This document shows positions 36,535 through 56,284 of a stretch of DNA of 64,000 bases, piece by piece. Origin of the DNA: Chloroflexota bacterium (GTDB lineage Bacteria; Chloroflexota; Anaerolineae; Anaerolineales; VGOW01); NCBI GenBank assembly GCA_016875735.1, contig VGOW01000010.1, positions 1 through 64,000 on the forward strand. The letters are read 5' to 3'. The first letter of the stretch is position 1. Each line of letters begins with the position of its first letter. The position numbers and the translations under genes were made by a program. The notes under the pieces were generated by a model. It saw nothing but the letters and a program-made list of their open reading frames with translations. It was not told where the DNA came from and ran no database searches.

Positions 36535-36560
36535 CGATTCATCATTCATCGTTCATCATT
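36535..36560. repeat. TTCATCG array between the two cytochrome genes
   Basis: CGATTCATCATTCATCGTTC then ATCATTTATTCG, the same family as at 14318 and 61765. It overlaps the octaheme gene's stop codon. Confidence 0.6.
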
Positions 36561-37998
36561 TATTCGTAAACCGCCCGCCCCACTCCATCGGATCGCCGGG
36601 GTAGCCAAGGGCTTGCCAATCGAGTCGCCCGTTGGCGCTGTGGCAGTCGTTGCATTGCAATGCGTTTTCCTTGGGCTGAACCATGTGAGTGGTGGGCCAA
36701 TACATCCACGTTTCAGCAAAACTGTAATTGCCGCTGTATTTCAAACCCATGCGCTCCTCGGCGAGTCGGAAGGCGCTGTCCCAATCGAACGTCGTCCAAT
36801 AACCGTCGGGGCCGGCAGTGACGGGCGCGAGCAGATAGTTGTAGCCAGTGTCGTAGGGCTGTTTGGCGACGTGCAACTTGAAGGGAAAGATTTTCGCGGC
36901 GGAGTCGTCAATGTCACCGGCGGGCAGGTTGATAGACGTGGGTTTGTTCGGGTCGATGGTGTCGCCGAGCAGATAACGATAAGCGAGGTTGCCGTTGAAC
37001 CACAGATACGCCGGTTGGACGTTGGAGGCGTATTCGAACGAGCCTTTGATTTTCAGATATTCAAAGTGATCGTCGGGCTGGAGTCCGAGTCCGGCGGTTG
37101 ACCAATCCCAATATACTTTGGTCGGGTCTTTGGTTGCCATCGAGGGAATGTGGCACGTTTGGCAGGCGACGGTTTGCGCGTGCGTATTGAGCCGCTCGTC
37201 GGCGTGAAGGTTGGCGGCGTGGCAGTCGGCGCAAGCCACTTGCTCATCGGGGCTGATGGTGTAATTGTCGGCGACGAGTCGGCCTTTGATTTGGTGATCT
37301 TGCGTGACGTGGCAATCGGTGCAGAGGAGGTTGTATTCGCCCATGTGCACGTCGGTTTCGGCGGCGGGATAATAAAGGGTCTCGTCGAGGTCGCCGTGTT
37401 TGACTCCGTTGCCGCCGCCGCCGTTAAAGTGGCACTTGCCGCACTGGTTGCGCGTGGGCGCGGCCACGCTTTGCGCGGCGGCGGCGAGGTCAACGCCGTC
37501 GGCAGGGTTGCCATATTGGCCTTTGGCGTATCCGCTCTGCGCGTGGCACACGAGGCAATCCACGTTTTCCGGTTTGGTGAGATTGGTGTTCTCTGCGCCT
37601 TCTTGCCAGTCGTAGCCCGCGTGACAGCTCATGCAGCTCTTTTGGTTGCCCTGCGCGCTGATGCAAAAGTTGTTGATCTGATTGATCTTGCCGATGGTCA
37701 CCGGCTCGGGGCGGCCGGGCACGGTGAACGGCTGGCTCTCCCACGTCCAATGCGAAGTCGCCATCACTTGTGTTGCCGAATCGGAGTGGCATTCGAGGCA
37801 GGCTTGAGTCACTTCCTGCCCGGTGGCATAGGGGCCGGGCATGAGGTCGGCGTGGCTCACATGCGTTTTGTGTTGAGGCAGGCTGGCGCGAGGGTTGTCA
37901 CGCGCCTGCACGGGTTTGGGCGCAAAGTAAATGATGGGGATGACGATGACGGCGAGGGTAACAATCAGACCCGTGACCCAGATGCGAGCATGGTTCAT
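36556..37998 (-). CDS. otr: Octaheme c-type cytochrome, tetrathionate reductase (Otr) family
   Basis: Exported or membrane-anchored multiheme protein of 480 residues with one N-terminal hydrophobic anchor and eight CxxCH sites: CLECH, CMSCH, CLVCH, CGKCH, CTDCH, CADCH, CQTCH and CNDCH. The overall pattern, including NNFCISAQGNQKSCMSCHAGY, matches the Otr family. Characterised members reduce tetrathionate and also nitrite or hydroxylamine in vitro, so the physiological substrate is open. The ATG overlaps the arsR stop (ATGA). Downstream are the heptaheme-b fusion and YeeE/YedE genes, favouring a sulfur-compound role. Confidence 0.88.
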   Translation of the reverse strand: MNHARIWVTGLIVTLAVIVIPIIYFAPKPVQARDNPRASLPQHKTHVSHADLMPGPYATGQEVTQACLECHSDSATQVMATSHWTWESQPFTVPGRPEPVTIGKINQINNFCISAQGNQKSCMSCHAGYDWQEGAENTNLTKPENVDCLVCHAQSGYAKGQYGNPADGVDLAAAAQSVAAPTRNQCGKCHFNGGGGNGVKHGDLDETLYYPAAETDVHMGEYNLLCTDCHVTQDHQIKGRLVADNYTISPDEQVACADCHAANLHADERLNTHAQTVACQTCHIPSMATKDPTKVYWDWSTAGLGLQPDDHFEYLKIKGSFEYASNVQPAYLWFNGNLAYRYLLGDTIDPNKPTSINLPAGDIDDSAAKIFPFKLHVAKQPYDTGYNYLLAPVTAGPDGYWTTFDWDSAFRLAEERMGLKYSGNYSFAETWMYWPTTHMVQPKENALQCNDCHSANGRLDWQALGYPGDPMEWGGRFTNK

Positions 37999-42587: not shown

Positions 42588-43631
42588 TCAGGCCGTCAAC
42601 CGATCATCGCGCAAGACTCGCGCCAGCACGCTCACCGCGCGCCGATACTCCGAGATCAAAATGCGCTCGTCGGGCGTGTGATCGAGCGACGAATCGCCGG
42701 GGCCGTAAGCCAGCGCCGGGCAGTTCCACACCGGCGCGACGATGTTCATATCCGACGTACCCGACTTCACCGTGAAACCGGGATCGCCGCCCTCGGCGCG
42801 GATGGCAGACAGAAACGATCGCACCAACGGCGTGTTCTTCTCGGCGCGATACGCCGGGACGCCGTCGAGCAACTTCACTCCGTCATTCCCTGCGCTCACA
42901 GACACGATCTCGGTCAGCCCCTCCACACTTAGCCCCAGCGGGAGCCGCAACCCGAACCGAAGCCAGGCCCTCTCCGCAAAGCCATCCGAGTCCGAGCCCA
43001 TCTCTCTCAGCGTCGGCAGAAGTTGATCGAACATCTTCGGCTTGCCCTCATTCATCTCCGCCGCCCGCGCCGCCAGCCGATTCCAAAAACTCACCGTCGC
43101 CTCGCACGCGCTCTCGCTCTGCGCTGACGTGTGCGCCAGAGTCCGCTTCGCCGTGAACTCGTACCACGCGCTCCCTTTGTATCCCAGCGTCACTTTATCC
43201 CACCCGCTCGGCTCGCCGATGATCAGCGCCGCGGGCCGATATTTATCGGCCACGAATTTTGCCCCGCGCGAATCGCCTTCCTCCCCCACCGCGCCGATCA
43301 CCGTGATCCGCCGCCCCGATATTTTTTCCACCATCGCGCCCGCCGCCACAAAACAAGCCAGCGGCCCTTTCGCGTCCACCGCCCCGCGCCCGCGCAGAAC
43401 ATCGCCACCACGAATCACTTCGATGAAGCCCGCCACCGTGTCGATGTGCCCGAGCAGAATCACTTCAGCGGGGCCGTCGCCCATCACCCCAACGGCGTTG
43501 CCCGCTTCGTCAATCGAAGCCTCGTATCCCATCGCCCGCATCTGCGCCACGAGATACTCCACCGCTTCGGCCTCTTGAAGAGTCGGGCTGTATATTTTCA
43601 ACAAACCTTCGAGCAAACCAACTTCGTCCAT
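42588..43631 (-). CDS. lysK: [LysW]-lysine/[LysW]-ornithine hydrolase
   Basis: M20-family zinc hydrolase (about 347 residues) that releases lysine or ornithine from the LysW carrier, last step of the carrier pathway. It shows ILLGHIDTVAGF (His, Asp), GRGAVDAKGPLACF (bridging Asp), GAVGEEGDSRGAKF (catalytic Glu) and KSGTSDMNIVAP near the C-terminus, a pattern of LysK/ArgE relatives. The preferred start MDEVGLLEGL lies after a GTGACTGTCAC palindrome that would otherwise be read as KVTVTF. It is the last gene of the lys operon. Confidence 0.9.
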   Translation of the reverse strand: MDEVGLLEGLLKIYSPTLQEAEAVEYLVAQMRAMGYEASIDEAGNAVGVMGDGPAEVILLGHIDTVAGFIEVIRGGDVLRGRGAVDAKGPLACFVAAGAMVEKISGRRITVIGAVGEEGDSRGAKFVADKYRPAALIIGEPSGWDKVTLGYKGSAWYEFTAKRTLAHTSAQSESACEATVSFWNRLAARAAEMNEGKPKMFDQLLPTLREMGSDSDGFAERAWLRFGLRLPLGLSVEGLTEIVSVSAGNDGVKLLDGVPAYRAEKNTPLVRSFLSAIRAEGGDPGFTVKSGTSDMNIVAPVWNCPALAYGPGDSSLDHTPDERILISEYRRAVSVLARVLRDDRLTA

Positions 43632-43649
43632 CAGAATTTTCGCAATAAA

Positions 43650-43684
43650 GTGACAGTCACTTTGAAAAGTGACTGTCACTTTCA
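43650..43684. repeat. AAAGTGACAGTCACTTT palindrome pair
   Basis: Two successive palindromes, AAAGTGACAGTCACTTT and AAAGTGACTGTCACTTT, separated by 1-2 nt just upstream of lysK. Confidence 0.8.
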
Positions 43685-43704
43685 TAGAACCACCCAATCA
43701 CCAC

Positions 43705-44772
43705 TCACAAATTGCCAATGATCGCCGCCGTCACTTCGCGAGTCGTTGCCGACCCGCCGAGATCGCGCGGCCAGACTCGATCAACGATCACGGCGTTCAC
43801 CGCCGCGCGCACTCGATCCGCCGCCGCCCCCTGCCCGATGTGATCGAGCAGCATCGCCGCCGACAGAATCGCGCCGATCGGATTGGCGATCCCCTGCCCG
43901 GCGATGTCGGGCGCGGAACCGTGCACCGGCTCGAACACTGCGGCCCGCTCCCCGATGTTCGCCGACGGCGCGATACCCAGCCCGCCGATCAGCGCGGCGG
44001 CTTCATCCGAGAGAATGTCGCCGAACAGATTCGTGGTCACGATCACGTCGAAGTTTTCGGGATCGCGCACGAGCCGCATCGCCATCGCGTCCACCAACAT
44101 TTCATCCACGGTCACTCCCGGGAACTCTGGCGCAACCTTCAAGCACGACTCGCGGAACAATCCATCCGTCACCTTCAGCACATTCGCCTTGTGCACCACC
44201 GTCACAGTTTGTTTTTTGGAGTTTGAAGTTTGAGATTTGAGATTTGAGATTTGGAGTTTTCGCGCATACGCGAACGCAACTCTCGCTATTCTCTCCGACC
44301 CCCTCGCCGTGATCACCCGCTCGGCAATCGCCGTGTCGCCGTCGCGCCGCTCGCGCCCGGCGTACATCCCTTCGGTGTTCTCGCGCACGATCAGCAAATC
44401 AACGTTCGGCCGAGAAAACGGCCCGGGCAGCGATCGCACAGGCCGCAAGTTCGCATACAGATCGAACGCCCTCCGCATCGCCAGAATCGGACTGCGGTAT
44501 CCGGCCACCGCGCCGGTGGTGGGCGACGACGTTGCCCCGAACATGGCAACGCCCGCCGACTCGATCTCCGCTAATGTCGCATCGGGAATCGCGTTCCCCG
44601 ATTTCTGAAAACGCTCGAAGCCGGCGTCGGCCTCCACAAACTCCAGCCCCAGACCCAAACTCCCCAGCACCTCCACCGCCGCCGGAATCACCTCTTTGCC
44701 GACGCCGTCTCCGGCAACGACGCAGATTTTCGATTGTTGATTGTTGATCGCTGATTGAAGCGGGTCGGCCAT
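43705..44772 (-). CDS. hicdh: Homoisocitrate dehydrogenase
   Basis: NAD-dependent beta-decarboxylating dehydrogenase giving 2-oxoadipate in the alpha-aminoadipate route. Key segments are LEFVEADAGFE, VDLLIVRENTEGMYAG, VVHKANVL (catalytic Lys), VIVTTNLFGDILSDEAA (Asp ligands) and EPVHGSAPDIAG. The whole is strikingly like the Thermus enzyme, and LysW genes around it favour this over isopropylmalate dehydrogenase. An AT-rich repeat gives ARKLQISNLKSQTSNSKKQ in the loop before VTVVHKANVL, and another (SAINNQQSKI) forms the N-terminus. Confidence 0.88.
   Translation of the reverse strand: MADPLQSAINNQQSKICVVAGDGVGKEVIPAAVEVLGSLGLGLEFVEADAGFERFQKSGNAIPDATLAEIESAGVAMFGATSSPTTGAVAGYRSPILAMRRAFDLYANLRPVRSLPGPFSRPNVDLLIVRENTEGMYAGRERRDGDTAIAERVITARGSERIARVAFAYARKLQISNLKSQTSNSKKQTVTVVHKANVLKVTDGLFRESCLKVAPEFPGVTVDEMLVDAMAMRLVRDPENFDVIVTTNLFGDILSDEAAALIGGLGIAPSANIGERAAVFEPVHGSAPDIAGQGIANPIGAILSAAMLLDHIGQGAAADRVRAAVNAVIVDRVWPRDLGGSATTREVTAAIIGNL
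44214..44266. repeat. AT-rich repeat in frame in hicdh
   Basis: GGAGTTTGAAGTTTGAGATT followed by TGAGATTTGAGATTTGGAG. It is almost the same as the hisF insert and is read as LQISNLKSQTSNSKK. Confidence 0.85.
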
Positions 44773-44810
44773 AAAGTCCAATCAACAATCCGCAATCTGC
44801 AATCTGCAAT
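44726..44810. repeat. GATTGTTGATTG / CAATCTGCAATC repeats at the hicdh start
   Basis: CGATTGTTGATTGTTGATCG inside the first codons and CAATCCGCAATCTGCAATCT just upstream form opposite-orientation arrays around the start codon. Confidence 0.7.
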
Positions 44811-45329
44811 TCACTCCCCGCCTCCCACCGTCACTGCTTCCGTGCTCGTGATCCCCAACTTCTTGCGAATGTGCGGGATGAGTCCGCCCGCTTCGAGAAT
44901 GCCGAGCGCGGTGGACGAAAGCGGCGGGAACGGAAACGCGCGTCCGTTCAGCCGCAACACACTGTTCGGCAAATCAATCTCGATCTCGTCGCCGCTCTGC
45001 GCCGCATCCACCGCCTCCGGACACGTGATGAGCAACAGCCCTTGATTGATCCCATTGCGAAAATAGATTCGCCCGAACGACTTCGCCACCACTGCCGTGA
45101 TGCCTTTGTATTTCAGGCAGGTCACTGCCTGCTCGCGCGAACTGCCGTTGCCCCAATTGCGCCCGGCCACAATCACATCGCCGGGCCGCGCCGCCGCCGC
45201 AAAATTCGGGTCGAGGTCTTCCAATGCGCGCGCCGCAATCTCCTCCGGCTCGCGCAGAGTGTACGTGTGCTTCCCGGCGAAGATCAAATCGGTGTTCACC
45301 CCGTCACCGTACTTCCAAACTTTACCCAT
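44811..45329 (-). CDS. lysU: Homoaconitase, small subunit
   Basis: Swivelling domain subunit of 172 residues that works with LysT to isomerise homocitrate to homoisocitrate. It shows NTDLIFAGKHTY, the substrate-binding loop AGRNWGNGSSREQA and SFGRIYFRNGINQGLL. LeuD-type subunits look alike; the assignment rests on the LysW cluster. It overlaps the upstream methyltransferase gene by 8 nt. Confidence 0.88.
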   Translation of the reverse strand: MGKVWKYGDGVNTDLIFAGKHTYTLREPEEIAARALEDLDPNFAAAARPGDVIVAGRNWGNGSSREQAVTCLKYKGITAVVAKSFGRIYFRNGINQGLLLITCPEAVDAAQSGDEIEIDLPNSVLRLNGRAFPFPPLSSTALGILEAGGLIPHIRKKLGITSTEAVTVGGGE

Positions 45330-46065
45330 TCGGCAGTTTCCTCGCCACGATCATGATTTCGATCTCGTCCAATTGCACAGGCCGCCGCCCCCAATTGCCC
45401 GCTGTGCCACCCCATACGTGCTCCACCGCAAATCCTGCTTCGCCGCACAGCCGCACCAATTCCTGAGGCAGATGGTGCTTCTCGCGCACGGTCACTGTTT
45501 GCTTGCCTGCCGGAGTCTCCCATTCCATTGTGTGAGTCTCCGCCAACGTCAACGGATCGAATCGCCCGGCGCGCACATCATCCTGCGAGTATTGGCGGAT
45601 GACTCGCAGTCCGTTGAGCGCGGTGAGAACGAAACGCGCGCCCGGCTTCAACGCGGCAAAGATATTACGCAGAATGGCCGTATCGTGACTCTCGGAGTCG
45701 TCGCCCATCGCCACCAACCCGAATGCGCCTTCGCACAAGCACACCGCCGCATCGAACTGCTTCGCCGAAACAAATTTCGTCGCATCCGCTTGAATCCATT
45801 CCACCGTCACTCCGGCCGCCTCCGCCGCCCTTCGCGCTTCGGCCAACATCCCCGCCGAGAGATCGACTCCCGTCATCCGGTATCCCCGCTTCGCCAGCTC
45901 AACCGAATGCCGCCCCGCGCCGCAACCCATGTCCAGCAACGAACTTCCCTTCGGCAGTTGCAACAGCTCTTCGAGAAAACCGATCTCGGCCAGAGTATTC
46001 TTCGTAAAAACTTCGCTCATGTATTGCGGCGCGTACCCATCGAAGAATCTCTCCCACTCGTTCAT
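45322..46065 (-). CDS. Class I SAM-dependent methyltransferase
   Basis: Soluble protein of about 247 residues with the SAM motif SLLDMGCGAGRHSVELAKRGYRMTGVDLS and the post-motif FDAAVCLCEGAFGL. The substrate is unknown. It is embedded between the two homoaconitase subunit genes, overlapping lysU by 8 nt and 30-odd bp from lysT, so it is expressed with the lysine pathway. Its role there is not obvious. The start MNEWERFFDGY at 46065 is preferred to the frame start at 46077. Confidence 0.8.
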   Translation of the reverse strand: MNEWERFFDGYAPQYMSEVFTKNTLAEIGFLEELLQLPKGSSLLDMGCGAGRHSVELAKRGYRMTGVDLSAGMLAEARRAAEAAGVTVEWIQADATKFVSAKQFDAAVCLCEGAFGLVAMGDDSESHDTAILRNIFAALKPGARFVLTALNGLRVIRQYSQDDVRAGRFDPLTLAETHTMEWETPAGKQTVTVREKHHLPQELVRLCGEAGFAVEHVWGGTAGNWGRRPVQLDEIEIMIVARKLPNG

Positions 46066-46106
46066 CACAACCTCCAATCCTCCACTCCTCTAATTCTCTA
46101 ACCCCC
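46066..46106. repeat. AT-rich repeat at the lysT/methyltransferase junction
   Basis: CCTCCAATCCTCCACTCCTC followed by TAATTCTCTAACC, a degenerate member of the GGATTGGAG family in the gap between the two genes. Confidence 0.5.
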
Positions 46107-47393
46107 AACCTCTCTCGGATCCGCAATCATCCCCGCCACCGCACTGGCCGCCACCACGGCCGGGCTGGCCAAATAAATCTCCGCATCTGTCTGCCCCATA
46201 CGCCCTCTGAAATTTCGGTTGGCGGTGGAGAGGCACACTTCGCCGGGCGCCAGCACGCCCATGTGATTGCCCATGCACGGCCCACACCCCGGCGTCCCGA
46301 TCACCGCTCCGGCTTCCATCAACGTCTGCAAATGTCCGAGCCTCAGCGCATCCATCATCACTTCCGACGACGCCGGGATGACGAGCAGTCGGCATCCGTT
46401 CGCCACCCGCTTCCCTTGCACGATCTCCGCCGCCGCGGCAATGTCTTCCAATCGCCCGTTGGTGCACGTGCCAATGAAGGCTTGGTGGATCGGAGTCCCT
46501 TTCACTTCGCGCAGTGGCCGCGCGTTGTCAACGGTGTGGGGGCAGGCAACGGTCAGCTCAACGGAGTCGGCGTCAACAGTGTATTCGTTTTCATATCTCG
46601 CGTCCGCGTCCGGATGGATCGCGTTGGATTCGATTTCAGTTTTTGTCTTTGGAGTTTGAGATTTGGAGTTGGAAGTTCTCTTTGCCAAATACTCAAACAC
46701 TTTTTCATCCGGCGGCAGGCAGGCATTCTTCACCCCGAACTCGGCCATCATGTTGGGAATGACCATTCGGCTTTCGAGCGACATCGCTTCGATGGCCGGG
46801 CCGGAGAGTTCGACCGATTTATAGAGGCCGCCGTCGGCCCCGAAGCGGCCAATGATGGCGAGGCACAAATCCTTCGACGTGACTCCGCGCCCCAACTTGC
46901 CGGTGACGATCACTCGAATGGACTCGGGCACGCGCAGCCACAACTCGCCCGTTGCCCAAATGGCGGCCATCTCACTGCGCCCCACCCCCGCTCCGAACGC
47001 GCCCATCCATCCGAAGTGCGGCGTGTGGCTGTCCGAGCCGAGAATGAGCTGGCCGGGAAGGATGATGGCCTCTTCGCTGAAAACTTGATGGCAAATGCCG
47101 CGCCCGACTTCGAAGAGATATTTGATCCCCTGCTCTTTGACGAACTCTCGAATCTCGGCGTGGTTGAGGGCATGGCGCGGCGTGGGCGCGGGCGCGGCGT
47201 GATCCAGCGTAATCGCCATCTTCTCCGGGATGGCGACTCGCTCGACGCCAATGGCGCGAAAAATTTTGGCAATGGCCGCCGTGTTGTCGTGCGAGAGGGC
47301 AATGTCGGGGCGGGCATCCACCACTTGCCCGGCCACTGCGGTCGGCAGACCCGCCGCCCGCGCCAACGCTTTCTCTGCAAATGTGTATCCCAT
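46098..47393 (-). CDS. lysT: Homoaconitase, large subunit
   Basis: Aconitase-fold subunit of 431 residues. 4Fe-4S ligands are in [13 protein letters not shown] and [43 protein letters not shown] and [19 protein letters not shown] are family blocks. The length matches the archaeal/Thermus LeuC-LysT type. Between VFEYLA and [10 protein letters not shown] a repeat-derived stretch ([19 protein letters not shown]) is inserted, keeping the frame. It is assigned as homoaconitase because of lysS, hicdh and LysW neighbours. Confidence 0.88.
46638..46682. repeat. AT-rich repeat in frame in lysT
   Basis: TTTTTGTCTTTGGAGTTTG followed by AGATTTGGAGTTGGAAGTTC. The second half matches the hisF insert base for base over about 20 nt. 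Confidence 0.85.
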
Positions 47394-47406
47394 GTGACGA
47401 ATAGCA

Positions 47407-47439
47407 AAACCTCACAGGTCTCCAAGACCTGTGAGGTTT
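47407..47439. repeat. 15-bp inverted repeat between lysS and lysT
   Basis: AAACCTCACAGGTCT, 3 nt, AGACCTGTGAGGTTT. A dispersed element or an intercistronic hairpin. Confidence 0.85.
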
Positions 47440-47446
47440 ACAAGTT

Positions 47447-48796
47447 CTACGGAATCTCGGCGATGCGCCGCAGTTGAACTCCGGCGCCGAGATTGGCCGG
47501 GCGAGTCGGCGTCGTCGAATCGAGCCGCTGGACGATCTGCGCCCGGGCCGACTCTGGCAGTTCGAGCCGCGCCAATCCAAATTCCTTTTCGGCGATGTTG
47601 ATCAACACTTGCTCCGGCGACACATCGGGCGCGAGTTGATACACGCGCTCTTTAAAGACCTGCGCGATCTCTTTGGCCGTGGCCTCGTCGAGTTGAAAAT
47701 AGCGAATCTCTTTCAGGAAATAGTGAACGGCGTTCCAACCCGAAAGAGGGCCGAGCAGGATTTCGGCTTCGGTCACGCCGAACAGATCGAGGGGGTGCGC
47801 TTCATAGACTGCGGCGTTGTTGAGCATTGCGCTTTGATGCACGCCCGCCGTGTGCGTGCGATTGGTGAGGCTCACCGGCTCTTTCGGCGGAACGAGCATC
47901 TTCAGTTTGTCGGCCGCCAGCACATTGATGGGATACGAGCCGCGCAGATGATAGCCTTCGAGTTTGTCGAACTCGCGGTCGAGATACAGATTGAACAACA
48001 GCGCTGTTATGCTGGTGATGCCCGAACGCTCGGCGATGCCTAGCAGAGTGGTGTTCATGTATCGCATCCCGCATCGCGCCGCCTCCAACGCATTGTACAA
48101 CGCGAAGCCGCGATCGTCGTGAAAGTGCCCTTCGAGTTCGACGTTTGGGTAGCGTTCGCGCATGGCGGCCACCCGCTTCGCCACCGCCGCCGGAGTGGCC
48201 ACCCCCACCGTATCCGGCATCCCAAACCGATCGACGTGTGGGGCAACGGAATCGTACACGCGAAATAGATCGTCGAGACGAGTGCGGAAGGCGTCTTCGC
48301 CGCTGAATCGCAAAAGGAGGTGCGGATGGTCGCGGCGGACTTCCTCGATGAGCGGCGCGGCTTTGGCGATGATCTCGTCGAGATCGTTGCCGTGATTGTA
48401 ATGGCGAGACTCGGCGGACGTGCCGATATACATATTGAGGCCGTCGGCTCCGGCCTCCACCGCCGCCTCCACATCGCGCAAATGACAGCGCACGTGCGCC
48501 AGCAAAAACGTGTAGCCCTTCTGCGTGATCAGACTGTCGCGCACGGCGCGGATCGCCTGCCAGTCGTCGCGTTCCTGCGGGCTGACCACCGGCGCGAACA
48601 ACTCGACGAACTTCACGCCATAAATGATCAGCGCGCGAACGATCTCTTCCTTGTCAGCGCGAGTGAAGAAGTATTTGTAGTGATCGTGCAGGAGGGAAGT
48701 TTGCTGGCCGTCGCGCAGGGTGGTGTCAATGATTTCGAGCGCGCGAGGTTGATAGAACGATTTTTGACTGCGGGGCGCCGGTTGCGAATTGTTCAC
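47447..48796 (-). CDS. lysS: Homocitrate synthase
   Basis: TIM-barrel condensing enzyme of 449 residues joining acetyl-CoA and 2-oxoglutarate, first step of the alpha-aminoadipate pathway. It shows IIDTTLRDGQQTSLL, the HCS-like RFSGEDAFRTRLDDLFRVYD with VAPHVDRFGMPDTVGVATP, the metal-site EGHFHDDRG, and the C-terminal TNRTHTAGVHQSAM. The spacing resembles Thermus HCS more than LeuA and it lacks the long LeuA regulatory domain, though its C-terminus is somewhat extended. It lies 3 bp after lysJ. Confidence 0.85.
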   Translation of the reverse strand: MNNSQPAPRSQKSFYQPRALEIIDTTLRDGQQTSLLHDHYKYFFTRADKEEIVRALIIYGVKFVELFAPVVSPQERDDWQAIRAVRDSLITQKGYTFLLAHVRCHLRDVEAAVEAGADGLNMYIGTSAESRHYNHGNDLDEIIAKAAPLIEEVRRDHPHLLLRFSGEDAFRTRLDDLFRVYDSVAPHVDRFGMPDTVGVATPAAVAKRVAAMRERYPNVELEGHFHDDRGFALYNALEAARCGMRYMNTTLLGIAERSGITSITALLFNLYLDREFDKLEGYHLRGSYPINVLAADKLKMLVPPKEPVSLTNRTHTAGVHQSAMLNNAAVYEAHPLDLFGVTEAEILLGPLSGWNAVHYFLKEIRYFQLDEATAKEIAQVFKERVYQLAPDVSPEQVLINIAEKEFGLARLELPESARAQIVQRLDSTTPTRPANLGAGVQLRRIAEIP

Positions 48797-48799
48797 GAT

Positions 48800-49984
48800 C
48801 TACTCTTCGCCTGCCGCGGCTTTGATCGGCGTTGCCAACGCTTCTTTCACCGCCTCCACCACTCTCCACAAATCTTCCTTGTCGATCACCAGCGGCGGCA
48901 AAAAGCGCATCACCGTGAGTCCGGCGGGCAGAGCCAGCACGCCTCTCCTCATCAACACTTGCAGATACGGCGTCACTTTTTGTTTGAGTTCGATCCCCAC
49001 CATCAATCCCAATCCTCGCACCTCTCGAATCAACGGCGACTCGATTCTCCTCAATTCTCCAATCCACCAATCTCCAATCTCTTTTGCCCGTTCAGGGAGG
49101 CGGTTCACTTCCAAATACTCAATCGCCGCCAGCGAGGCGGCGCAGGCCAGCGGGTTGCCGCCGAACGTGGAGCCGTGCGTTTGTGGCGGCAACGGCCCCA
49201 CGCGCTCGCCGATCAGAGTCGCGCCCATCGGCAAACCGCCGGCAATGGATTTTGCCAGCGCCATCAGATCCGGCTCCAGCCCGTAATGCTCGCAAGCGAA
49301 CATCGCCCCCGTGCGCCCGAAACCGGTTTGCACTTCGTCCACGATCAACATCGCCCCGCGCTCGCGGCACAACGTTTGCGCGCCCAGCAAATAGTCCGCT
49401 GTGCCGGGCCGCACCCCGCCCTCGCCCTGCACCACTTCTAAAATCACGCCGGCCGTTTTGTCGTTGATGGATGAGTCGAGCGCGGCCAGATCGTTGTAGG
49501 CCACATGTTTGAATCCGGGCCACAGCGGCTCATACGGCTCGCGATATTTTTTCTCCCATGTCGCCGAGAGCGCCCCGATCGTCCGGCCATGAAAGCCGCG
49601 CATCGTCGCCACGAACTCGCCGCGCCCCGTGGCCACCCGCGCAAACTTCAACGCCGCTTCCACCGCCTCCGTGCCGGAGCTGCACAGGTAAGCGCGGCGC
49701 ATGTTCTGCGGCGCGATGCGGATCAATTTTTGAATCAACTCTGCGCGGCGATCGTTGAAGAACATTTCCGGGCAACTGATGAGCGTTTGCGCCTGCGCGG
49801 CGATGGCCGCCGCCACTGCCGGGTTGGCGTGACCCAGGTTGCCCGCCCCCTGCCCGCCCACGCAGTCAACGTACTCGTTCTCGTCGCTGTCCCACAAATG
49901 CGCGCCGCTCCCGCGCACGATGGCGATGGGACGTTTGGTGTACAGGCCGGAGGTGTATTGCGATTCGATGTCTTGGATGGTCAT
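48800..49984 (-). CDS. lysJ: [LysW]-aminoadipate semialdehyde/ornithine aminotransferase
   Basis: Class III PLP aminotransferase of about 394 residues, transferring an amino group to the LysW-bound semialdehyde. It shows LCSSGTEAVEAALKFAR, GFHGRTIGAL, the Asp in MLIVDEVQTGFGRTG and the Schiff-base Lys in DLMALAKSIAGGLPMGA. Residues around EIGDWWIGELRRIES are encoded by a GATTGG-rich repeat that seems to have replaced a helix without changing length. The start MTIQDIES at 49984 is preferred, since the earlier codons come from a GGATT repeat. Confidence 0.9.
   Translation of the reverse strand: MTIQDIESQYTSGLYTKRPIAIVRGSGAHLWDSDENEYVDCVGGQGAGNLGHANPAVAAAIAAQAQTLISCPEMFFNDRRAELIQKLIRIAPQNMRRAYLCSSGTEAVEAALKFARVATGRGEFVATMRGFHGRTIGALSATWEKKYREPYEPLWPGFKHVAYNDLAALDSSINDKTAGVILEVVQGEGGVRPGTADYLLGAQTLCRERGAMLIVDEVQTGFGRTGAMFACEHYGLEPDLMALAKSIAGGLPMGATLIGERVGPLPPQTHGSTFGGNPLACAASLAAIEYLEVNRLPERAKEIGDWWIGELRRIESPLIREVRGLGLMVGIELKQKVTPYLQVLMRRGVLALPAGLTVMRFLPPLVIDKEDLWRVVEAVKEALATPIKAAAGEE
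49040..49085. repeat. AT-rich repeat-like segment in frame in lysJ
   Basis: CTCCTCAATTCTCCAATCCA then CCAATCTCCAATCTC on the plus strand, i.e. GATTGGAGATTGGTGGATTG on the coding strand. Confidence 0.55.
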
Positions 49985-49987
49985 GTA

Positions 49988-50068
49988 GTTTTCATCAACC
50001 GGTTTACCGGATTGAGCGGATTCGTTTTGAGTCAATCCGATAAATCCGCTCAATCCATTGACGAGATT
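49988..50068. repeat. GGATTGAGCGGATTC inverted repeat upstream of lysJ
   Basis: AACCGGTTTACCGGATTGAG on the left mirrors CAATCCGATAAATCCGCTC on the right. Related to the hisD insert at 23205. Confidence 0.7.
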
Positions 50069-50070
50069 CG

Positions 50071-50874
50071 TCACGAAATTACGGTGCCTTGGCCCGCCAA
50101 CGCATTCGCCACCGGATTCTCCACCCGGCCATCGGCAAACACCACCTTGCTCACTCCGAGCCCCAAGGCCTCGCTCGCGCCCAGCACCTTCTTCTTCATT
50201 CGCCCTTCGGCGAACTCCAGCGATCGCTCCACTTTCGCTTTGTCGATATAAGCGATCACCGAGCTTTCATCGGGGAAGTTTCGCATGAGGCCCGGCACGT
50301 TGGAAAGAATGATCAGTTGCTCGGCCTTCACCGCCCCGGCCACCATCGCCGCCGCGCGGTCGGCGTCCACGTTCAGCGCCACGCCCTCGGGCGAGATCGC
50401 CAGCGGCGCGATCACGGGCGTATAACCGTCATCCAACAACATCATTAACAACTTACTATTTACTTCTTCTATCTTGCCCGTGTAGTCGTCTCTCAGCATC
50501 CGCTGTCTGCCGTTCTCCACAATACGGATGGCCTCTTTGCGCTTCGCCACCATCAACCGCCCATCCACACCCGACAGCCCAAACGCATTCACGCCCAACG
50601 ACTGCAATTTTTCGACGAGCAGTGTGTTGATCTTGCCCGACGTGACCATGGCGAAAATTTCGAGCGTCGTTCGATCCGTGTAACGCGACGTGTAACCTGA
50701 CGGCGAAGTGACGAATCGCGGCGGGTGGCCGAGCTGCTCCGAAATAGCATTCGTCTCCCCCGACCCACCGTGCACCACCACCATTTTCTGCCCGGCCTTC
50801 ACCTGCGCGGCAACATCGCCCATCACCCAATCCAAATTGACGCCCGAAGCGCCGCCCATCTTTATAACTATCAT
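50071..50874 (-). CDS. lysZ: [LysW]-aminoadipate/glutamate kinase
   Basis: Amino-acid kinase of about 267 residues phosphorylating the side-chain carboxylate held on LysW. It shows IVIKMGGASG, VVVHGGSGETN, the acetylglutamate-kinase-like GLSGVDGRL and NVDADRAAAMVAG. The start MIVIKMGG (50874) is clear, since the longer frame reads a GCGCAAAG repeat. It sits between lysY and lysJ as in other LysW clusters. Confidence 0.92.
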   Translation of the reverse strand: MIVIKMGGASGVNLDWVMGDVAAQVKAGQKMVVVHGGSGETNAISEQLGHPPRFVTSPSGYTSRYTDRTTLEIFAMVTSGKINTLLVEKLQSLGVNAFGLSGVDGRLMVAKRKEAIRIVENGRQRMLRDDYTGKIEEVNSKLLMMLLDDGYTPVIAPLAISPEGVALNVDADRAAAMVAGAVKAEQLIILSNVPGLMRNFPDESSVIAYIDKAKVERSLEFAEGRMKKKVLGASEALGLGVSKVVFADGRVENPVANALAGQGTVIS

Positions 50875-50875
50875 G

Positions 50876-50958
50876 AAATCATTTCGCCGCAAAGGCGCAA
50901 AGAGCGCAAAGATTCTTTTCAGGTTTTTCTTTGCGTCCTTCGCGGCTTCGCGGTGCGC
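50876..50958. repeat. Intergenic inverted repeat between lysZ and lysY
   Basis: CGCCGCAAAGGCGCAAAGAG on the left mirrors TTTGCGTCCTTCGCGGCTTC on the right, the family seen at 15886 and 20905. Confidence 0.65.
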
Positions 50959-50960
50959 TC

Positions 50961-52001
50961 TTAAAGCGGATGCAAGCCCGGAAACTCCAGCCCTGCCGTC
51001 TCCTCGAACCCGCACATGATGTTCATGGCTTGCACCGCACTGCCCGACGCGCCCTTCATCAAATTGTCAATCGCCGCCAGAGCCACGCACCGTCCGGACT
51101 CCGGCTCCAATTCGAATCCCACATCGGCAAAATTCGAGCCGGCCAAAATTTTGGGGTCAGGCGCGCGGTGAATGCCGCCGCGATCTTTGACGATGCGCAC
51201 GAACGGCTCATTGCCGTACGCCGCGCGATACGCCCGCCACAAATCCTTCTCCGTCACGCCCGGCTTCAAGAAAGCGTGCGCGGTCGCCAACACGCCGCGC
51301 ACAAGATCGACCGCCGTCATGCTCAAGTGAACATCGTGCAAGCCCAGTTCCTGAATCACCTCCGCTGTGTGCCGGTGCCCCGTCGGCGCATACGAGCGCA
51401 CCGAGTGACTCTTCTCCGGGTGATGCGATCCCGGATTCACCGTCGCCCCGCTTTCTGACGATCCGGTTTTGATGTCCACTACCACCGGTTTGATCGGGTG
51501 CAGAAGATCCGCCTTCACCAACGGAAGCAGAGCCAGATTGGAGGCCGTCGCGTTGCACCCCACCCCGCTGATGTAGTTCGCCGTCTTCATTTCCTCGCGG
51601 CGCAGTTCGGGCAAGCCGTACACAAATTTGGGCAGCCAGTGCGGCGCGGCGTGCTTCTCGCCGTACCATCGTTCGTACAGCGCCGTGTCGCGCAACCGAA
51701 AGTCCGCCGAGAGATCGACGATCTTCGGCGCAAACTTTGCCCAATGCTCAATTTGCTTTTGAGTCTCACCGTGCGGCATGGCGAGAAAAAGCGCGTCGCA
51801 TTCTTTGATTGCGTCGCGGCTGGCGAATTGCAGCTGCGTGCGCTTGCGTAAGTTGGGGTGCTGACTGTGGATGAACTCGCCTGCGTAACTGTTGGAGATA
51901 GCCTGCGCCACTTCGACATGTGGGTGAAAGAGCAACAGCCGCAACAGCTCGCCGCCGGTGTACCCCGACGCGCCGACAATTGAAACCCGAAGCCTCCCCA
52001 T
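50961..52001 (-). CDS. lysY: [LysW]-aminoadipyl/glutamyl phosphate reductase
   Basis: NADPH-dependent semialdehyde dehydrogenase of 346 residues, ArgC-like. It shows the nucleotide-binding VSIVGASGYTGGELLRLL, the catalytic Cys in ISGVGCNATASNLAL and PTGHRHTAEVIQEL. The ATG at 52001 overlaps the lysX stop (ATGA). The longer frame upstream runs antisense-like through lysX and is rejected. Confidence 0.92.
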   Translation of the reverse strand: MGRLRVSIVGASGYTGGELLRLLLFHPHVEVAQAISNSYAGEFIHSQHPNLRKRTQLQFASRDAIKECDALFLAMPHGETQKQIEHWAKFAPKIVDLSADFRLRDTALYERWYGEKHAAPHWLPKFVYGLPELRREEMKTANYISGVGCNATASNLALLPLVKADLLHPIKPVVVDIKTGSSESGATVNPGSHHPEKSHSVRSYAPTGHRHTAEVIQELGLHDVHLSMTAVDLVRGVLATAHAFLKPGVTEKDLWRAYRAAYGNEPFVRIVKDRGGIHRAPDPKILAGSNFADVGFELEPESGRCVALAAIDNLMKGASGSAVQAMNIMCGFEETAGLEFPGLHPL

Positions 52002-52915
52002 CACCCAGCCACTCCGGCTGCCGGCCGTTGACTTCCAACTTCTGGCTTCTGACCTCTGGCTTCTGACTTCTCCTGCCCCACCTTCATCGTGTACTCCACA
52101 ATATAGCCGGGAATGTCCACCCCCGTCGTCGGCACGGTGGTGTGAAACTCCATCGTGTGATTGATCTCGTTGATCAACAGCCCGCGGTTCGGGTCTTCGA
52201 GCACGTCCACCGCCAGCACGCCGCCGCCCACTGCGTTGGCGGCCTCCACGCAAACCTTGTTCAGTTCGGGAGTCACCGGGCAAGTGCTTCCCTTCCCGCC
52301 GCGCGCCGTGTTCGTAATCCAATGCTCCGACGTGCGATAGATGGCGCAGATCGTTTCATCGCCGACTACAAACGCGCGAATATCGCGGCCCGGCTTTCGG
52401 ATCAACTCTTGAATGTAGAAAATTTGGTGCTGATAGTTGCCAAGCACTTCGCGATGCTCAAGGATGGCTTCCGCCGCGTCGCGATCGTTGATCCTCGACA
52501 CCATGCGCCCCCACGATCCAACGACCGGTTTGAGCACCACCGGGTAGCCCATCTCTTCGATGGCCGCCAACGCGCTCTCGGCGGTGAAGGCCACGCGCAC
52601 GTTGGGCTGGGGAACATTGGCGCGCATCAATGCGGCGGTCGTCGCCAGTTTGTCGCCGCACGTCGCCGCCACCGAAGCCATGTTCACCGTCGGCACACCC
52701 CACGCATTCAGCACTTGCGTAGCATACAACCCGCGCCCGAACGAAATACTGCGCTCCAACACCACATCGTACGCCAGCCAGCCGCCGGGCGCATCGAAAT
52801 TAAACTTGGCCTCGCGATCGTCAATCTTGTCGTATTCGAGGCCGCGCTTCTCCAGCGCCTCGAACAACCATTTCTCTTCGACTCGAACCCGCGACAGCAA
52901 TACGCCAATCTTCAT
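52001..52915 (-). CDS. lysX: LysW-aminoadipate/glutamate ligase (ATP-grasp)
   Basis: ATP-grasp ligase of 304 residues attaching alpha-aminoadipate and/or glutamate to the C-terminal Glu of LysW. It shows [52 protein letters not shown] and the metal site [13 protein letters not shown]. The last about 25 residues ([19 protein letters not shown]) are encoded by an AGAAGTCAGAAG repeat and lengthen the C-terminus. As the only LysX here, and with argGH upstream, it may accept both substrates, as known for some archaeal systems. Confidence 0.92.
52020..52075. repeat. GAAGTCAGAAGCCAG repeat forming the lysX 3' end
   Basis: TTCCAACTTCTGGCTTCTGA then CCTCTGGCTTCTGACTTC on the plus strand: tandem 10- to 12-mers read as the basic/acidic tail of LysX. 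Confidence 0.7.
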
Positions 52916-53015: not shown

Positions 53016-53183
53016 CTACTCTCCCCAGTCTTCGGCCTCTTGCGGCGCCAGAGCCAGCGCCAGCGGCGCGAGGTCGATCACTTCGAGATCGACGCCACAG
53101 TCGCCGCACACCACGATCTCGCCGGTCTGCACGTCGTCGGCCAAAGCCAAAGCGCCTTCGCATTCAGGACAAGTAGTCATCAT
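53016..53183 (-). CDS. lysW: LysW amino-group carrier protein
   Basis: A 55-residue carrier for lysine/arginine intermediates, missed by a long-ORF search. It has a zinc-ribbon-like N-terminus (MMTTCPECEGAL, VVCGDCG) and an acidic C-terminus that ends in the diagnostic EDWGE, whose terminal Glu is the attachment point. A GGAG lies 6 nt before the first ATG. It is the first gene of the lysWXYZJSTU operon and sits directly behind a leader peptide and terminator. Confidence 0.95.
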   Translation of the reverse strand: MMTTCPECEGALALADDVQTGEIVVCGDCGVDLEVIDLAPLALALAPQEAEDWGE

Positions 53184-53200: not shown

Positions 53201-53237
53201 TATGAAAAATAAAAGACCCCTCTACGGTGAGGGGTCT
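53201..53237 (-). terminator. Leader terminator upstream of lysW
   Basis: AGACCCCTC (53237-53229), 6-nt loop, GAGGGGTCT (53222-53214), then TTTTATTTTT on the minus strand. GAGACCC of the 5' arm is complementary to GGGTCTC within the leader-peptide codons (53296-53290), a candidate antiterminator. Confidence 0.8.
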
Positions 53238-53269
53238 CTGTTCGCATGGCCTATGAATGTGACTGTGCT

Positions 53270-53353
53270 TCACCCAAGCCAAACTAGCCGAGACCCGCAG
53301 TTGGGACGCTTCGGCAGACGGAACTCACGCTTGGGCAGAGCAACGGTAAACAT
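53270..53353 (-). CDS. Lys/Arg-containing leader peptide of the lysW operon
   Basis: A 27-residue ORF, MFTVALPKREFRLPKRPNCG followed by SRLVWLG, with two Lys-Arg pairs and two more Arg codons, ending 33 nt before the terminator. Stalling at KR codons when lysine or arginine is scarce would expose the GGGTCTC antiterminator. The ATG lies 7 nt after a TAAATT -10 box, so the mRNA would be leaderless, like the his leader. The combination of position, codons, promoter and complementary arms argues for a real attenuator. Confidence 0.65.
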   Translation of the reverse strand: MFTVALPKREFRLPKRPNCGSRLVWLG

Positions 53354-53360
53354 CGAGTGC

Positions 53361-53389
53361 AATTTATCACGAGAGGCGATGATCGTCAC
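53361..53389 (-). promoter_or_regulatory. Promoter of the lysW operon leader
   Basis: GTGACG (53389-53384), 17 nt, TAAATT (53366-53361), 7 nt before the leader ATG. Each hexamer matches consensus at 4 of 6 positions. Confidence 0.5.
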
Positions 53390-53425: not shown

Positions 53426-54799
53426 TCATTTTGATGAACCCAACAGCGACCGCGCCGCCGCGATCTGATCCCGAACCGACTCGGGCGCGGCGCCGCCAAT
53501 GACGTTGCGCGCCGCTACCGCTTTCGCCGCCTCGAACACATCCCGAACATCCTCCTCGAACGCGCCGCTGATCTCGCGCAACTCTCCCATTATCAAATCG
53601 TCGATCCCAATCCCTCTCTCAAGAGCCCTTCGCACCATTTTGCCCACCACTCCGTGCGCCTGCCGAAACGGCAAACCCTTTCGCACAAGATAATCAGCCA
53701 CTTCGGTCGCCAACAGACTCGCGTCAACTGCCGCGCGCATCCGCTCGCGGTTGACGACCATCGTCGCCACCGTGCCGGCCACCACGGGCAGCAACACAGC
53801 CAGCGTGTCGAAGGCCGCGAAGACGGGCGCTTTGTCTTCCTGCAAATCTTTGTCGTATGCCGAAGGCAGGCCTTTCATCACCGCCAGCAATCCGGTGAGC
53901 AAACCAATCAGAGTCCCGGCTTTGCCTCGCGCCAATTCGAGCATGTCGGGATTCTTCTTTTGCGGCATGATGCTCGACCCGGTCGAATAGGCATCGCTCA
54001 TTTCCACGAAGCCGAACTCGGCGGTGGAATAAAGGATGAGCGCATCGGCCAAGCGGCTGAGGTGCGAGCCGATGAGCGCACAATCGAAAAGAAGCTCGGC
54101 GGCGAAGTCGCGGTCGGCAACGGCATCATGGCTGTTGGGAGAGGCGGCGGCGAAGCCGAGCGAGTCGGCCAGCCATTGGCGATCAATGGCAAAACCGGTT
54201 CCGGCCAGCGCCGCCGATCCGAGCGGCATCACACTCGCCCGTTGCCGAGTCTGCGCCAATCGTTCCCGGTCGCGCTGCAACGCCCAAAAGTGACTCATCA
54301 GCCAATGACTAAAAAGGATCGGCTGGGCGCGTTGTGTGTGTGTATATCCCGGCAGAACGGTTTCGAGTTCCGACTCGGCTTTTCCGACGAGCGCCGCTTG
54401 CAAGCCAACCCCTCGCAACAAAAGTTGATCGATGGCCTCCATCATCCACAATCGGAAGTCGGTCGCCACCTGATCGTTGCGACTGCGCCCGGTGTGCAGT
54501 TTGCCGCCCACCGCGCCCGCGATCTCGCTCAGCCGCCGCTCGACGGCGGTGTGAATATCCTCATCGCCCGGCGCAAACACGAACTCGCCCGCGTTGAACT
54601 CGGCCCACACTTTTTGCAGGCCCGCGCACAACTCTTCCGCCTCCCCCGCCGAGACTACTTGCGCGCGAGCCAGCGCCCGCGCCCACGCCACACTGCCGCG
54701 AATGTCGGCGTCCCATAATCGCTTGTCCACCGCCAGCGACGCATTGAGCTGCATCGCCAGCGGATCGAGTTTCCCCTCGAAGCGTCCGCCCCACAGCAT
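53426..54799 (-). CDS. argH: Argininosuccinate lyase
   Basis: Fumarase-superfamily lyase of 457 residues giving arginine and fumarate, last arginine step. It shows MLWGGRFEGKLDPLAMQLNASLAVD, GKLHTGRSRNDQVATDFRLWM, LPGYTHTQRAQPILFSHWL and the signature GSSIMPQKKNPDMLELARGKAG with the catalytic Ser. A 20-codon ORF with a KR pair overlaps its stop by ATGA; its meaning is unclear. It follows argG after a repeat-filled gap of 46 bp. Confidence 0.96.
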   Translation of the reverse strand: MLWGGRFEGKLDPLAMQLNASLAVDKRLWDADIRGSVAWARALARAQVVSAGEAEELCAGLQKVWAEFNAGEFVFAPGDEDIHTAVERRLSEIAGAVGGKLHTGRSRNDQVATDFRLWMMEAIDQLLLRGVGLQAALVGKAESELETVLPGYTHTQRAQPILFSHWLMSHFWALQRDRERLAQTRQRASVMPLGSAALAGTGFAIDRQWLADSLGFAAASPNSHDAVADRDFAAELLFDCALIGSHLSRLADALILYSTAEFGFVEMSDAYSTGSSIMPQKKNPDMLELARGKAGTLIGLLTGLLAVMKGLPSAYDKDLQEDKAPVFAAFDTLAVLLPVVAGTVATMVVNRERMRAAVDASLLATEVADYLVRKGLPFRQAHGVVGKMVRRALERGIGIDDLIMGELREISGAFEEDVRDVFEAAKAVAARNVIGGAAPESVRDQIAAARSLLGSSK

Positions 54800-54845: not shown

Positions 54846-56111
54846 CTAATCTCGCTTGAACTTAGAATAGTCCGGCTCGCGGTAGCGCGTCTTGCCCTGC
54901 GCGGCAATGTCCATCATCGCGTGCACCTTCATCGGCAGGCCGAACAGAGTGATGAAACCTTCGGCGTCGGACTGATCGTACACATCCTCTTTGCCAAAGG
55001 TAGCGAAGTCTTCACGGTACAGCGAGTGATCGCTCCAGCGCCCAGCGCTGATGATGTTGCCTTTGTACAATTTGAGTTTCACCGTGCCGCTCACCGTTTG
55101 CTGTGTAAAAGTGACGAACATGTCGAGCGCCTCGCGCAGAGGCGTGTACCACTGCCCGTTGTAAACCAGATCAGCGTACTTGAGGGCGATGACTTGTTTG
55201 TAATGCAGAGTCTCGCGGTCGAGGCAGATCGATTCCAACTCACGGTGAGCCGCCACCAAAATCGATCCGCCCGGAGTCTCGTACACGCCGTGCGACTTCA
55301 TGCCCACCAACCGATTCTCCACCAGATCGACTCGCCCCACGCCGTGCCTGCCGCCGATCTCGTTGAGTTTGGCAATCACGTTATACGCCGACAGCGATTG
55401 ACCGTTCACCGCCACCGGCTCGCCCTTCTCGAAAGTGACCTCGACATACTCCGGTTTGTCGGGCGCGCTCTCCGGCGAAGCCGACCGCTGATACATAGTC
55501 TCCTCCGGCTCGTTGGCCGGGCTCTCCAACAAACCGCCCTCGTGCGAAAGATGCCACAGATTATCGTCGCGGCTGTAAATGGATTTGGTGGTCGCCGTCA
55601 CCGGCACGCCGTGCTTCCTGCAATACTCAATCGCGTCCTCGCGGGATCGGATATCCCACTCGCGCCACGGAGCGATCACTTTCAGTCGCGGGTTGAGCGC
55701 GGTATACGTCAACTCGAACCGAACCTGATCGTTGCCTTTACCTGTGCATCCGTGCGACACTGCATCGGCGCCCTCCTCTTCGGCCACCTTCACTTGATAC
55801 GTAGCAATGAGCGGGCGAGCCACCGATGTGCCGAGCAGATACTTATGCTCATACACCGCGCCGGACTTGAGCAATTTGAAGAGGTAGTCTTTGGCGAACT
55901 CCTCTTTCAAATCCTTGACCACACACTTCAGCGCGCCCGAGGCCACCGCTTTGGCCGGAACGCCGGAGAGGTCTTCATTCTGCCCGATGTCGGCGCAGAA
56001 GCAGATCACCTCCGAGCCGGGGTAGTTCTCCTTCAACCACGGAACAATGGTCGAAGTATCCAGCCCGCCGGAATAAGCCAACACGATTTTTTTGACATCT
56101 TTTTTGGTCAT
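54846..56111 (-). CDS. argG: Argininosuccinate synthase
   Basis: ATP-dependent ligase of 421 residues condensing citrulline and aspartate. It shows the PP-loop [53 protein letters not shown] and [17 protein letters not shown]. The start MTKKDVKK (56111) has GAGGAG upstream. The earlier in-frame codons run through a terminator hairpin and are not translated in my reading. It follows an Arg-rich leader ORF. Confidence 0.96.
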
Positions 56112-56123
56112 GAGAATCTCCTC

Positions 56124-56163
56124 AAAATAGAAACAAATAAGCCCTCCGGGACTCGGAGGGCTT
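56124..56163 (-). terminator. Leader terminator upstream of argG
   Basis: AAGCCCTCCG (56163-56154), 5-nt loop, CGGAGGGCTT (56148-56139), followed by ATTTGTTTCTATTTT on the minus strand. A perfect 10-bp stem placed 30 nt before the argG start. Confidence 0.8.
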
Positions 56164-56191: not shown

Positions 56192-56284
56192 CTAAACGCG
56201 CGCGAAGCGAGCCGAGCGGCCCGGCTGGGTGGTTCGGGGCGAACGACGGCTGCTACGGCGCGCAAAGGTAATCACGAGGGCCAT
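56192..56284 (-). CDS. Arginine-rich leader ORF upstream of argG
   Basis: A 30-codon ORF beginning [17 protein letters not shown] and containing eight Arg codons in total (CGC, CGT, CGA), ending 28 nt before the terminator. It resembles an arginine attenuator leader peptide. Random GC-rich frames are also Arg-rich, and I found no clear antiterminator. A TTGACA (56318-56313) lies upstream without a good -10. It is therefore less certain than the his and lys leaders. Confidence 0.45.

Follow-up and report, generated by a model that had tools for sequence, protein, structure and literature searches.

A putative leader-peptide attenuator with lysine and arginine codons upstream of lysW in an Anaerolineales-type Chloroflexota genome

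The product of the enzymes that act with the carrier protein LysW may be lysine, arginine or both, and it is hard to tell from enzyme sequence alone. The lysW locus of the window (the whole 64,000-nucleotide stretch of Chloroflexota DNA analyzed here) raises the question of how such a set of genes is regulated, and in answer to which amino acid. On the minus strand the gene order is argG, argH, a gap of 242 nt, lysW, lysX, argC/lysY, lysZ and lysJ, followed by the AAA-lysine genes for homocitrate synthase, the large and small subunits of homoaconitase and homoisocitrate dehydrogenase, and then lysK. The gene for the amino-group carrier protein, lysW (53016-53183), starts with the ATG at 53183 and matches TIGR01206 above cut-off; argH lies at 53426-54799 and the rest of the operon, from lysX to lysK, at 42588-52915, and the start of argG (54846-56111) was corrected to the ATG at 56111. 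The genome from which the window comes (G000) is of the Anaerolineales type, and the relatives of its LysW protein are nearly all from Anaerolineae. It has a single copy of lysW, and dapB was not found in it or in the related genomes G001, G002 and G005. Since lysW is alone in its genome, the AAA-lysine genes stand in the same operon and dapB is missing, LysW must serve both lysine and arginine, although a lysA-like gene in the genome speaks somewhat against this.

An earlier note, made from the letters of this DNA, had placed a candidate attenuator in the gap before lysW, and each of the parts that it described was found. The leader ORF (MFTVALPKREFRLPKRPNCGSRLVWLG; 53270-53353, minus strand) has 27 codons and encodes two Lys and four Arg, arranged as the two KR pairs and two further Arg residues (R12 and R22) of the earlier description. 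Upstream of it lies a candidate promoter (53361-53389, minus strand) with a −35 element GTGACG (53389-53384), a 17-nt spacer and an extended −10 element TAAATT with TG (53366-53361). Similar hexamers with equal spacing were seen by inspection in four congeners, namely the window's genome and the three others with a readable locus (G001, G002 and G004). A weighted promoter scan recovered the site in three of these four and preferred another site for G002, and a strict consensus scan found no promoter before the lysW leader. The start codon follows the −10 element by 7 nt and has no Shine-Dalgarno sequence, which is explained if the mRNA is, as it probably is, leaderless or nearly so. A 39-residue extension of the leader to a GTG start overlaps the promoter and was therefore discarded.

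Inside the leader codons, a protector (1:2) hairpin is predicted to form between CCGA..CCC and GGG..TCGG (53288-53314, minus strand). The last leader codons also contain GGGTCTC (segment 2; 53296-53290, minus strand), the putative 5′ strand of an antiterminator, which is the exact complement of GAGACCC (53238-53232) in the 5′ arm of an intrinsic terminator, as had been claimed. The terminator (53203-53239, minus strand) consists of a stem-loop, AGAGACCCCTC-ACCGTA-GAGGGGTCTTT (53239-53212), with 11 pairs, one of them G-U, and then TATTTTTC, with the T tract at 53211-53203. Its stem is 28 nt from the lysW ATG, and with the T tract it ends about 20 nt before lysW. Both folding and the consensus fold give an antiterminator hairpin of segments 2:3 with an inner helix (53232-53296, minus strand). 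The window leader runs eight codons past GGGTCTC, in a frame different from that of G001 and G002. Taken alone, the complementarity of GGGTCTC is only modestly unlikely, as about 3% of 60 shuffles equaled the real sequence, and the whole region folds no better than shuffles (z = −1.06); bulk fold energy was excluded from the evidence. The pairing is convincing because it is conserved in three congeners and because the same layout recurs, with other sequences, in many Anaerolineae.

Promoter, leader ORF, GGGTCTC and terminator all recur in G001, G002 and G004, whose lysW leaders are MFTVALPKREFRLPSRPKWGLG, MIVALLSSREFRLPKRPHRGLG and MFKEIFPKREPQRQPKCPVGSRLF, respectively. GGGTCTC is invariant across the four congeners and the 5′ arm of the terminator stays complementary to it, in G002 (GAGGCCCC) through a G-U pair. 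The earlier note had named two signs that would speak against an attenuator, loss of the leader ORF in relatives and loss of the complementarity where the terminator is kept. Neither was seen: the leader is retained in all three relatives, and complementarity and terminator are kept together in all four congeners. The protector hairpin also folds in the four, at −11 to −14 kcal/mol. The genus consensus fold contains zero compensatory pairs because both arms are invariant; in a group of loci with Lys leaders (L107, L123 and L153), wherever bases differ, those in the two arms match by eye.

Co-transcriptional folding was modelled with ribosome footprints on the RNA that is available before the 3′ arm of the terminator has been made. 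When the A site is placed at K8 or K15, the unoccupied RNA of the window is predicted to form the antiterminator, with 7-8 pairs and about −27 kcal/mol; the modelled values with a stalled ribosome were −32 kcal/mol for G001, −31 for G002 and −29 to −32 for G004. Once the ribosome has reached the stop codon, the antiterminator is impossible in the model and only the terminator can form (−19 kcal/mol in the window, −17 to −19 across the four congeners), and this is true of all four. Full-region equilibrium folding usually favors the terminator over the antiterminator; therefore, the switch must be co-transcriptional, that is, dependent on the order of folding, as in known attenuators. It appears that the lysW element is a ribosome-mediated transcription attenuator of the trp/his type that most likely answers a shortage of arginine or lysine; on the comparative evidence, we put the probability that it is an attenuator at about 0.88.

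From these parts, their conservation and complementarity, and the match between leader residues and operon product described below, we infer the transcription start, translation, stalling and regulatory outcome of the lysW leader as follows. The leader would be transcribed from its own promoter, and translation would begin at or near the 5′ end of the RNA. With an ample supply of charged tRNA-Arg and tRNA-Lys, the ribosome would reach the stop codon and cover GGGTCTC, and the terminator would form before lysW. A ribosome stalled at any one of the K/R codons 8-16 would leave GGGTCTC free to pair with GAGACCC of the terminator 5′ arm, and this pairing would let transcription continue through lysW and the remaining operon. 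If the leader is not translated, the protector hairpin would hide GGGTCTC and the terminator would form. The argGH genes would be under a separate attenuator located ahead of argG, whose control codons are all for Arg.

A search for K/R-rich leaders upstream of lysW in relatives, proposed in the earlier note, found them both in the genus and across the class. LysW was present in 299 of the 396 Anaerolineae genomes that were sampled, and the upstream regions of 188 distinct lysW loci were examined. An intrinsic terminator lay within 130 nt of lysW in 59 of the 188 loci, and 51 of these 59 also carried a short ORF upstream that encoded four or more K/R, although the sequences within families are not independent of one another. 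A few of the surveyed loci gave no sign of an attenuator, and a clear leader is present in the cultured relatives Bellilinea caldifistulae (L010) and Anaerolinea thermolimosa (L025). When leaders were picked blind to K/R content, either from the promoter or as the longest ORF with an ATG start, 71 ORFs were obtained versus 35 in shuffled sequences, and their K+R fraction was 0.194 versus 0.147 in the shuffles (sd 0.012). The antiterminator was assessed by comparing each leader end with its own terminator arm and ranking the complementarity against the arms of mismatched loci, by sequence cluster. The rank was 0.05 or better in 10 of 21 clusters (about 1 expected; binomial p = 2e-8), and one large cluster of 37 members had a median rank of 0.11.

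In other Chloroflexota classes, no K/R leader was found in the loci inspected. A T-box precedes lysW at locus L263 of another Chloroflexota lineage (positions 1150-1433; RF00230 at 98.5 bits, above the Rfam gathering score), and the lysW upstream region of L268, also from another Chloroflexota lineage, is T-box-like by eye only and below threshold. Four loci of one family (L256, L258, L260 and L261) share a conserved leader region (CCTATCCCCGCCCCCAGG...) and a terminator-like hairpin before lysW, with no K/R leader. Upstream of lysW in a member of the Phycisphaerales (Planctomycetota; L067) there is a K/R-containing short ORF, MTHTSRKALKAKTAPIVRASALGCACRV, with a hairpin, which may be an independent case.

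The residues of the leaders follow the product of the operon. Operons of the order lysW-X-..-J-K-argG-argH have leaders such as RNSRRARAKRS, those with hcs, hacA, hacB and lysK have leaders such as KRSKSKK or IKRAKKQ, and argG-first operons have an Arg-rich leader before argG, for example PRTRRPKPTS. With blind picking, 20 leaders of arginine operons contained 23 K and 103 R, and 19 leaders of lysine operons contained 62 K and 37 R. The ratio K/(K+R) separates the two kinds of operon (Mann-Whitney p = 4e-5, blind picking), and still does so when each family contributes a single value (p = 0.01), a test for which the leader was selected by eye if more than one start could be used. The argG-type leader block varies by codon position (0.10/0.02/0.34) and shows 103 synonymous versus 32 nonsynonymous differences, a pattern that we take as the mark of a translated sequence in these argG leaders.

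The window itself contains a second leader of this kind. A 27-residue ORF with a GTG start, Arg-rich and without Lys (56192-56275, minus strand), precedes argG, followed by an intrinsic terminator (56139-56163, minus strand) that lies 27 nt before the argG ATG. Arg-rich leaders precede argG in G001, G002 and G004 too. Within the genus, the argG leaders contain 1 K to 24 R, whereas the lysW leaders contain 8 K to 14 R (Fisher p = 0.008). The order relative G005, which has one dual operon, carries just one leader, a mixed one, ahead of argG (MNAILLKPRARRIFSHPDNGKVG; K2 R3). Judging from the leader codons, argGH of the window would be controlled by an Arg-only attenuator, and the LysW genes by one with both residues.

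Several other explanations of the lysW element must be weighed against attenuation. The stem is located after argH on the same strand and could be a plain argGH terminator joined to a chance ORF. However, the lysW start follows too closely for a promoter to fit between the two, the stem is conserved together with leader, promoter and antiterminator, and in many lysine operons it is present without argH upstream, which makes this explanation hardly credible. A riboswitch, T-box or protein-binding leader RNA with an accidental ORF has a precedent in the T-box control of lysW elsewhere in the phylum (L263), but we regard it as highly improbable for the window: neither a T-box nor a lysine riboswitch occurs in 20 related leader regions, and the RNA core is not conserved outside the genus while the K/R leader is. 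A permissive Rfam search, with E values up to 5 allowed, gave no match in the window; as identities for the window element, T-box RF00230 (which L263 does match) and the lysine riboswitch were rejected for want of a covariance-model match. It is also conceivable that the leader peptide arrests the ribosome on free arginine or lysine and does not report tRNA charging at all. In TnaC and the ornithine-sensing SpeFL leader it is the nascent peptide itself that arrests the ribosome, and certain motifs in the present leaders are well conserved (PRTRRPKPTS and KREFRLPKRP). However, the leaders are very different between families, yet their K/R content and product matching persist; therefore, codon reading fits better than one arrest motif, and a nascent-peptide sensor seems improbable.

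Within ribosome-mediated attenuation, the same mechanism might read arginine only, with the Lys codons incidental and lysine unsensed. Arg does exceed Lys in the lysW leader (4 R, 2 K) and argGH lie directly upstream, but the products of the operon are both amino acids. Plainly arginine-type leaders sometimes carry one Lys (PRTRRPKP); however, within the genus the leaders before argG are almost free of Lys, in contrast to the lysW leaders with the counts given above. The Lys codons of the genus lysW leaders are few, only one in G002, and their columns are not strictly conserved, yet every congener retains at least one Lys ahead of the antiterminator. In G001, the lysW leader is retained though the homocitrate synthase and homoaconitase genes are located elsewhere, and a Lys-only leader sought before the separate hcs operon of this genome was not found. 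We consider arginine-only control possible but doubtful. The earlier proposal that one leader could read both pools is not proven, but it is favored by the composition of the lysW leader relative to the argG leaders and by the presence of genes for both products. The leader combines 2 K and 4 R codons with an operon of argGH, lysWXYZJK and AAA-lysine genes, as expected of a multivalent leader, and a mixed leader is fitting because the only lysW serves arginine and the AAA-lysine genes, with dapB missing. On balance, we lean toward a lysW leader that senses both amino acids. We lean, rather less firmly, toward a tandem design in which an Arg-only attenuator on argGH would be followed by a mixed Lys/Arg OR gate on the LysW genes, within a class-wide, near-leaderless family in Anaerolineae whose residues evolve with the operon product (Arg, Lys or both).

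Ribosome-mediated attenuation has long been established in the trp, his and leu operons of enterobacteria. The lysW element shares with these a short leader ORF rich in product codons, the protector, antiterminator and terminator segments, and an outcome decided by ribosome position. It is unlike them in its lack of a Shine-Dalgarno sequence, its start so close to the −10 element, and its Arg and Lys codons. The thrABC (Thr/Ile) and ilvGMEDA (Ile/Val/Leu) operons of E. coli have multivalent leaders, in which several amino acids from shared enzymes are likewise read by one leader; the pathway and residues are different, and the window has a separate, putative Arg-only attenuator on the upstream arginine-specific genes. 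With the T-box (RF00230), the proposed mechanism has in common that tRNA charging is read and lysW is controlled, but a T-box binds tRNA directly and has no leader peptide.

The earlier note was aware of no described attenuator for a LysW pathway. For lysine this does not stand, as Tsubouchi et al. reportedly described in 2005 (J Biol Chem) a leader-peptide attenuator of the LysW-type lysine cluster of Thermus thermophilus. That system is said to share leader-peptide transcription attenuation, an AAA/LysW lysine cluster and Lys codons in the leader with the window, and to serve lysine only and lie ahead of hcs. Unlike it, the window has Arg together with Lys codons, ahead of lysW and with argGH upstream, in another phylum, and the relatives of the window carry Arg-only and Lys-rich variants. 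We know of no earlier leader-peptide attenuator on an arginine biosynthesis operon and of none described in the phylum, and a literature search gave no paper in which LysW or arginine biosynthesis is under leader-peptide attenuation, nor any on Chloroflexi leader peptides. The mechanism itself is known; the Arg and mixed versions of the leader and the tracking of the product appear to be new. Attenuators of trp have been reported in Corynebacterium and Streptomyces, and for the arginine and lysine operons of Actinobacteria the same survey reported no RNA regulatory structures (PMC1262725). The Arg codons of the Salmonella speF leader respond to arginine supply, but unlike the leader in the window it controls ornithine decarboxylase and not arginine synthesis (PMC6386406).

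Since the product can apparently be read from the leader peptide, this peptide could help to annotate the LysW operons of uncultured bacteria. Enzymes shared by two amino acids pose a regulatory problem that would be solved here by mixing codons in one leader. Amino-acid attenuation would also be extended to arginine synthesis and to Chloroflexota, other members of which have a T-box at the corresponding position before lysW.

Finally, some features of the gene content were observed in passing. In the genome of the window, a strong match to lysA (diaminopimelate decarboxylase) on contig C25 (22342-23535) occurs alongside the AAA-lysine operon, with dapB not found. In several L183-type loci (L204-L206 and L225, arginine-type operons), the region matched by LysX is about 1.7 kb long, which suggests a LysX/LysY fusion or duplication. 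Between the homoaconitase subunit genes of the window, a 251-aa ORF (45322-46077, minus strand) had no NCBIfam match at E 1e-20 and may be spurious or an additional operon gene. Elsewhere in the window, 36556-37998 (minus strand) encodes an octaheme c-type cytochrome of the tetrathionate reductase family (TIGR04315, 540 bits).
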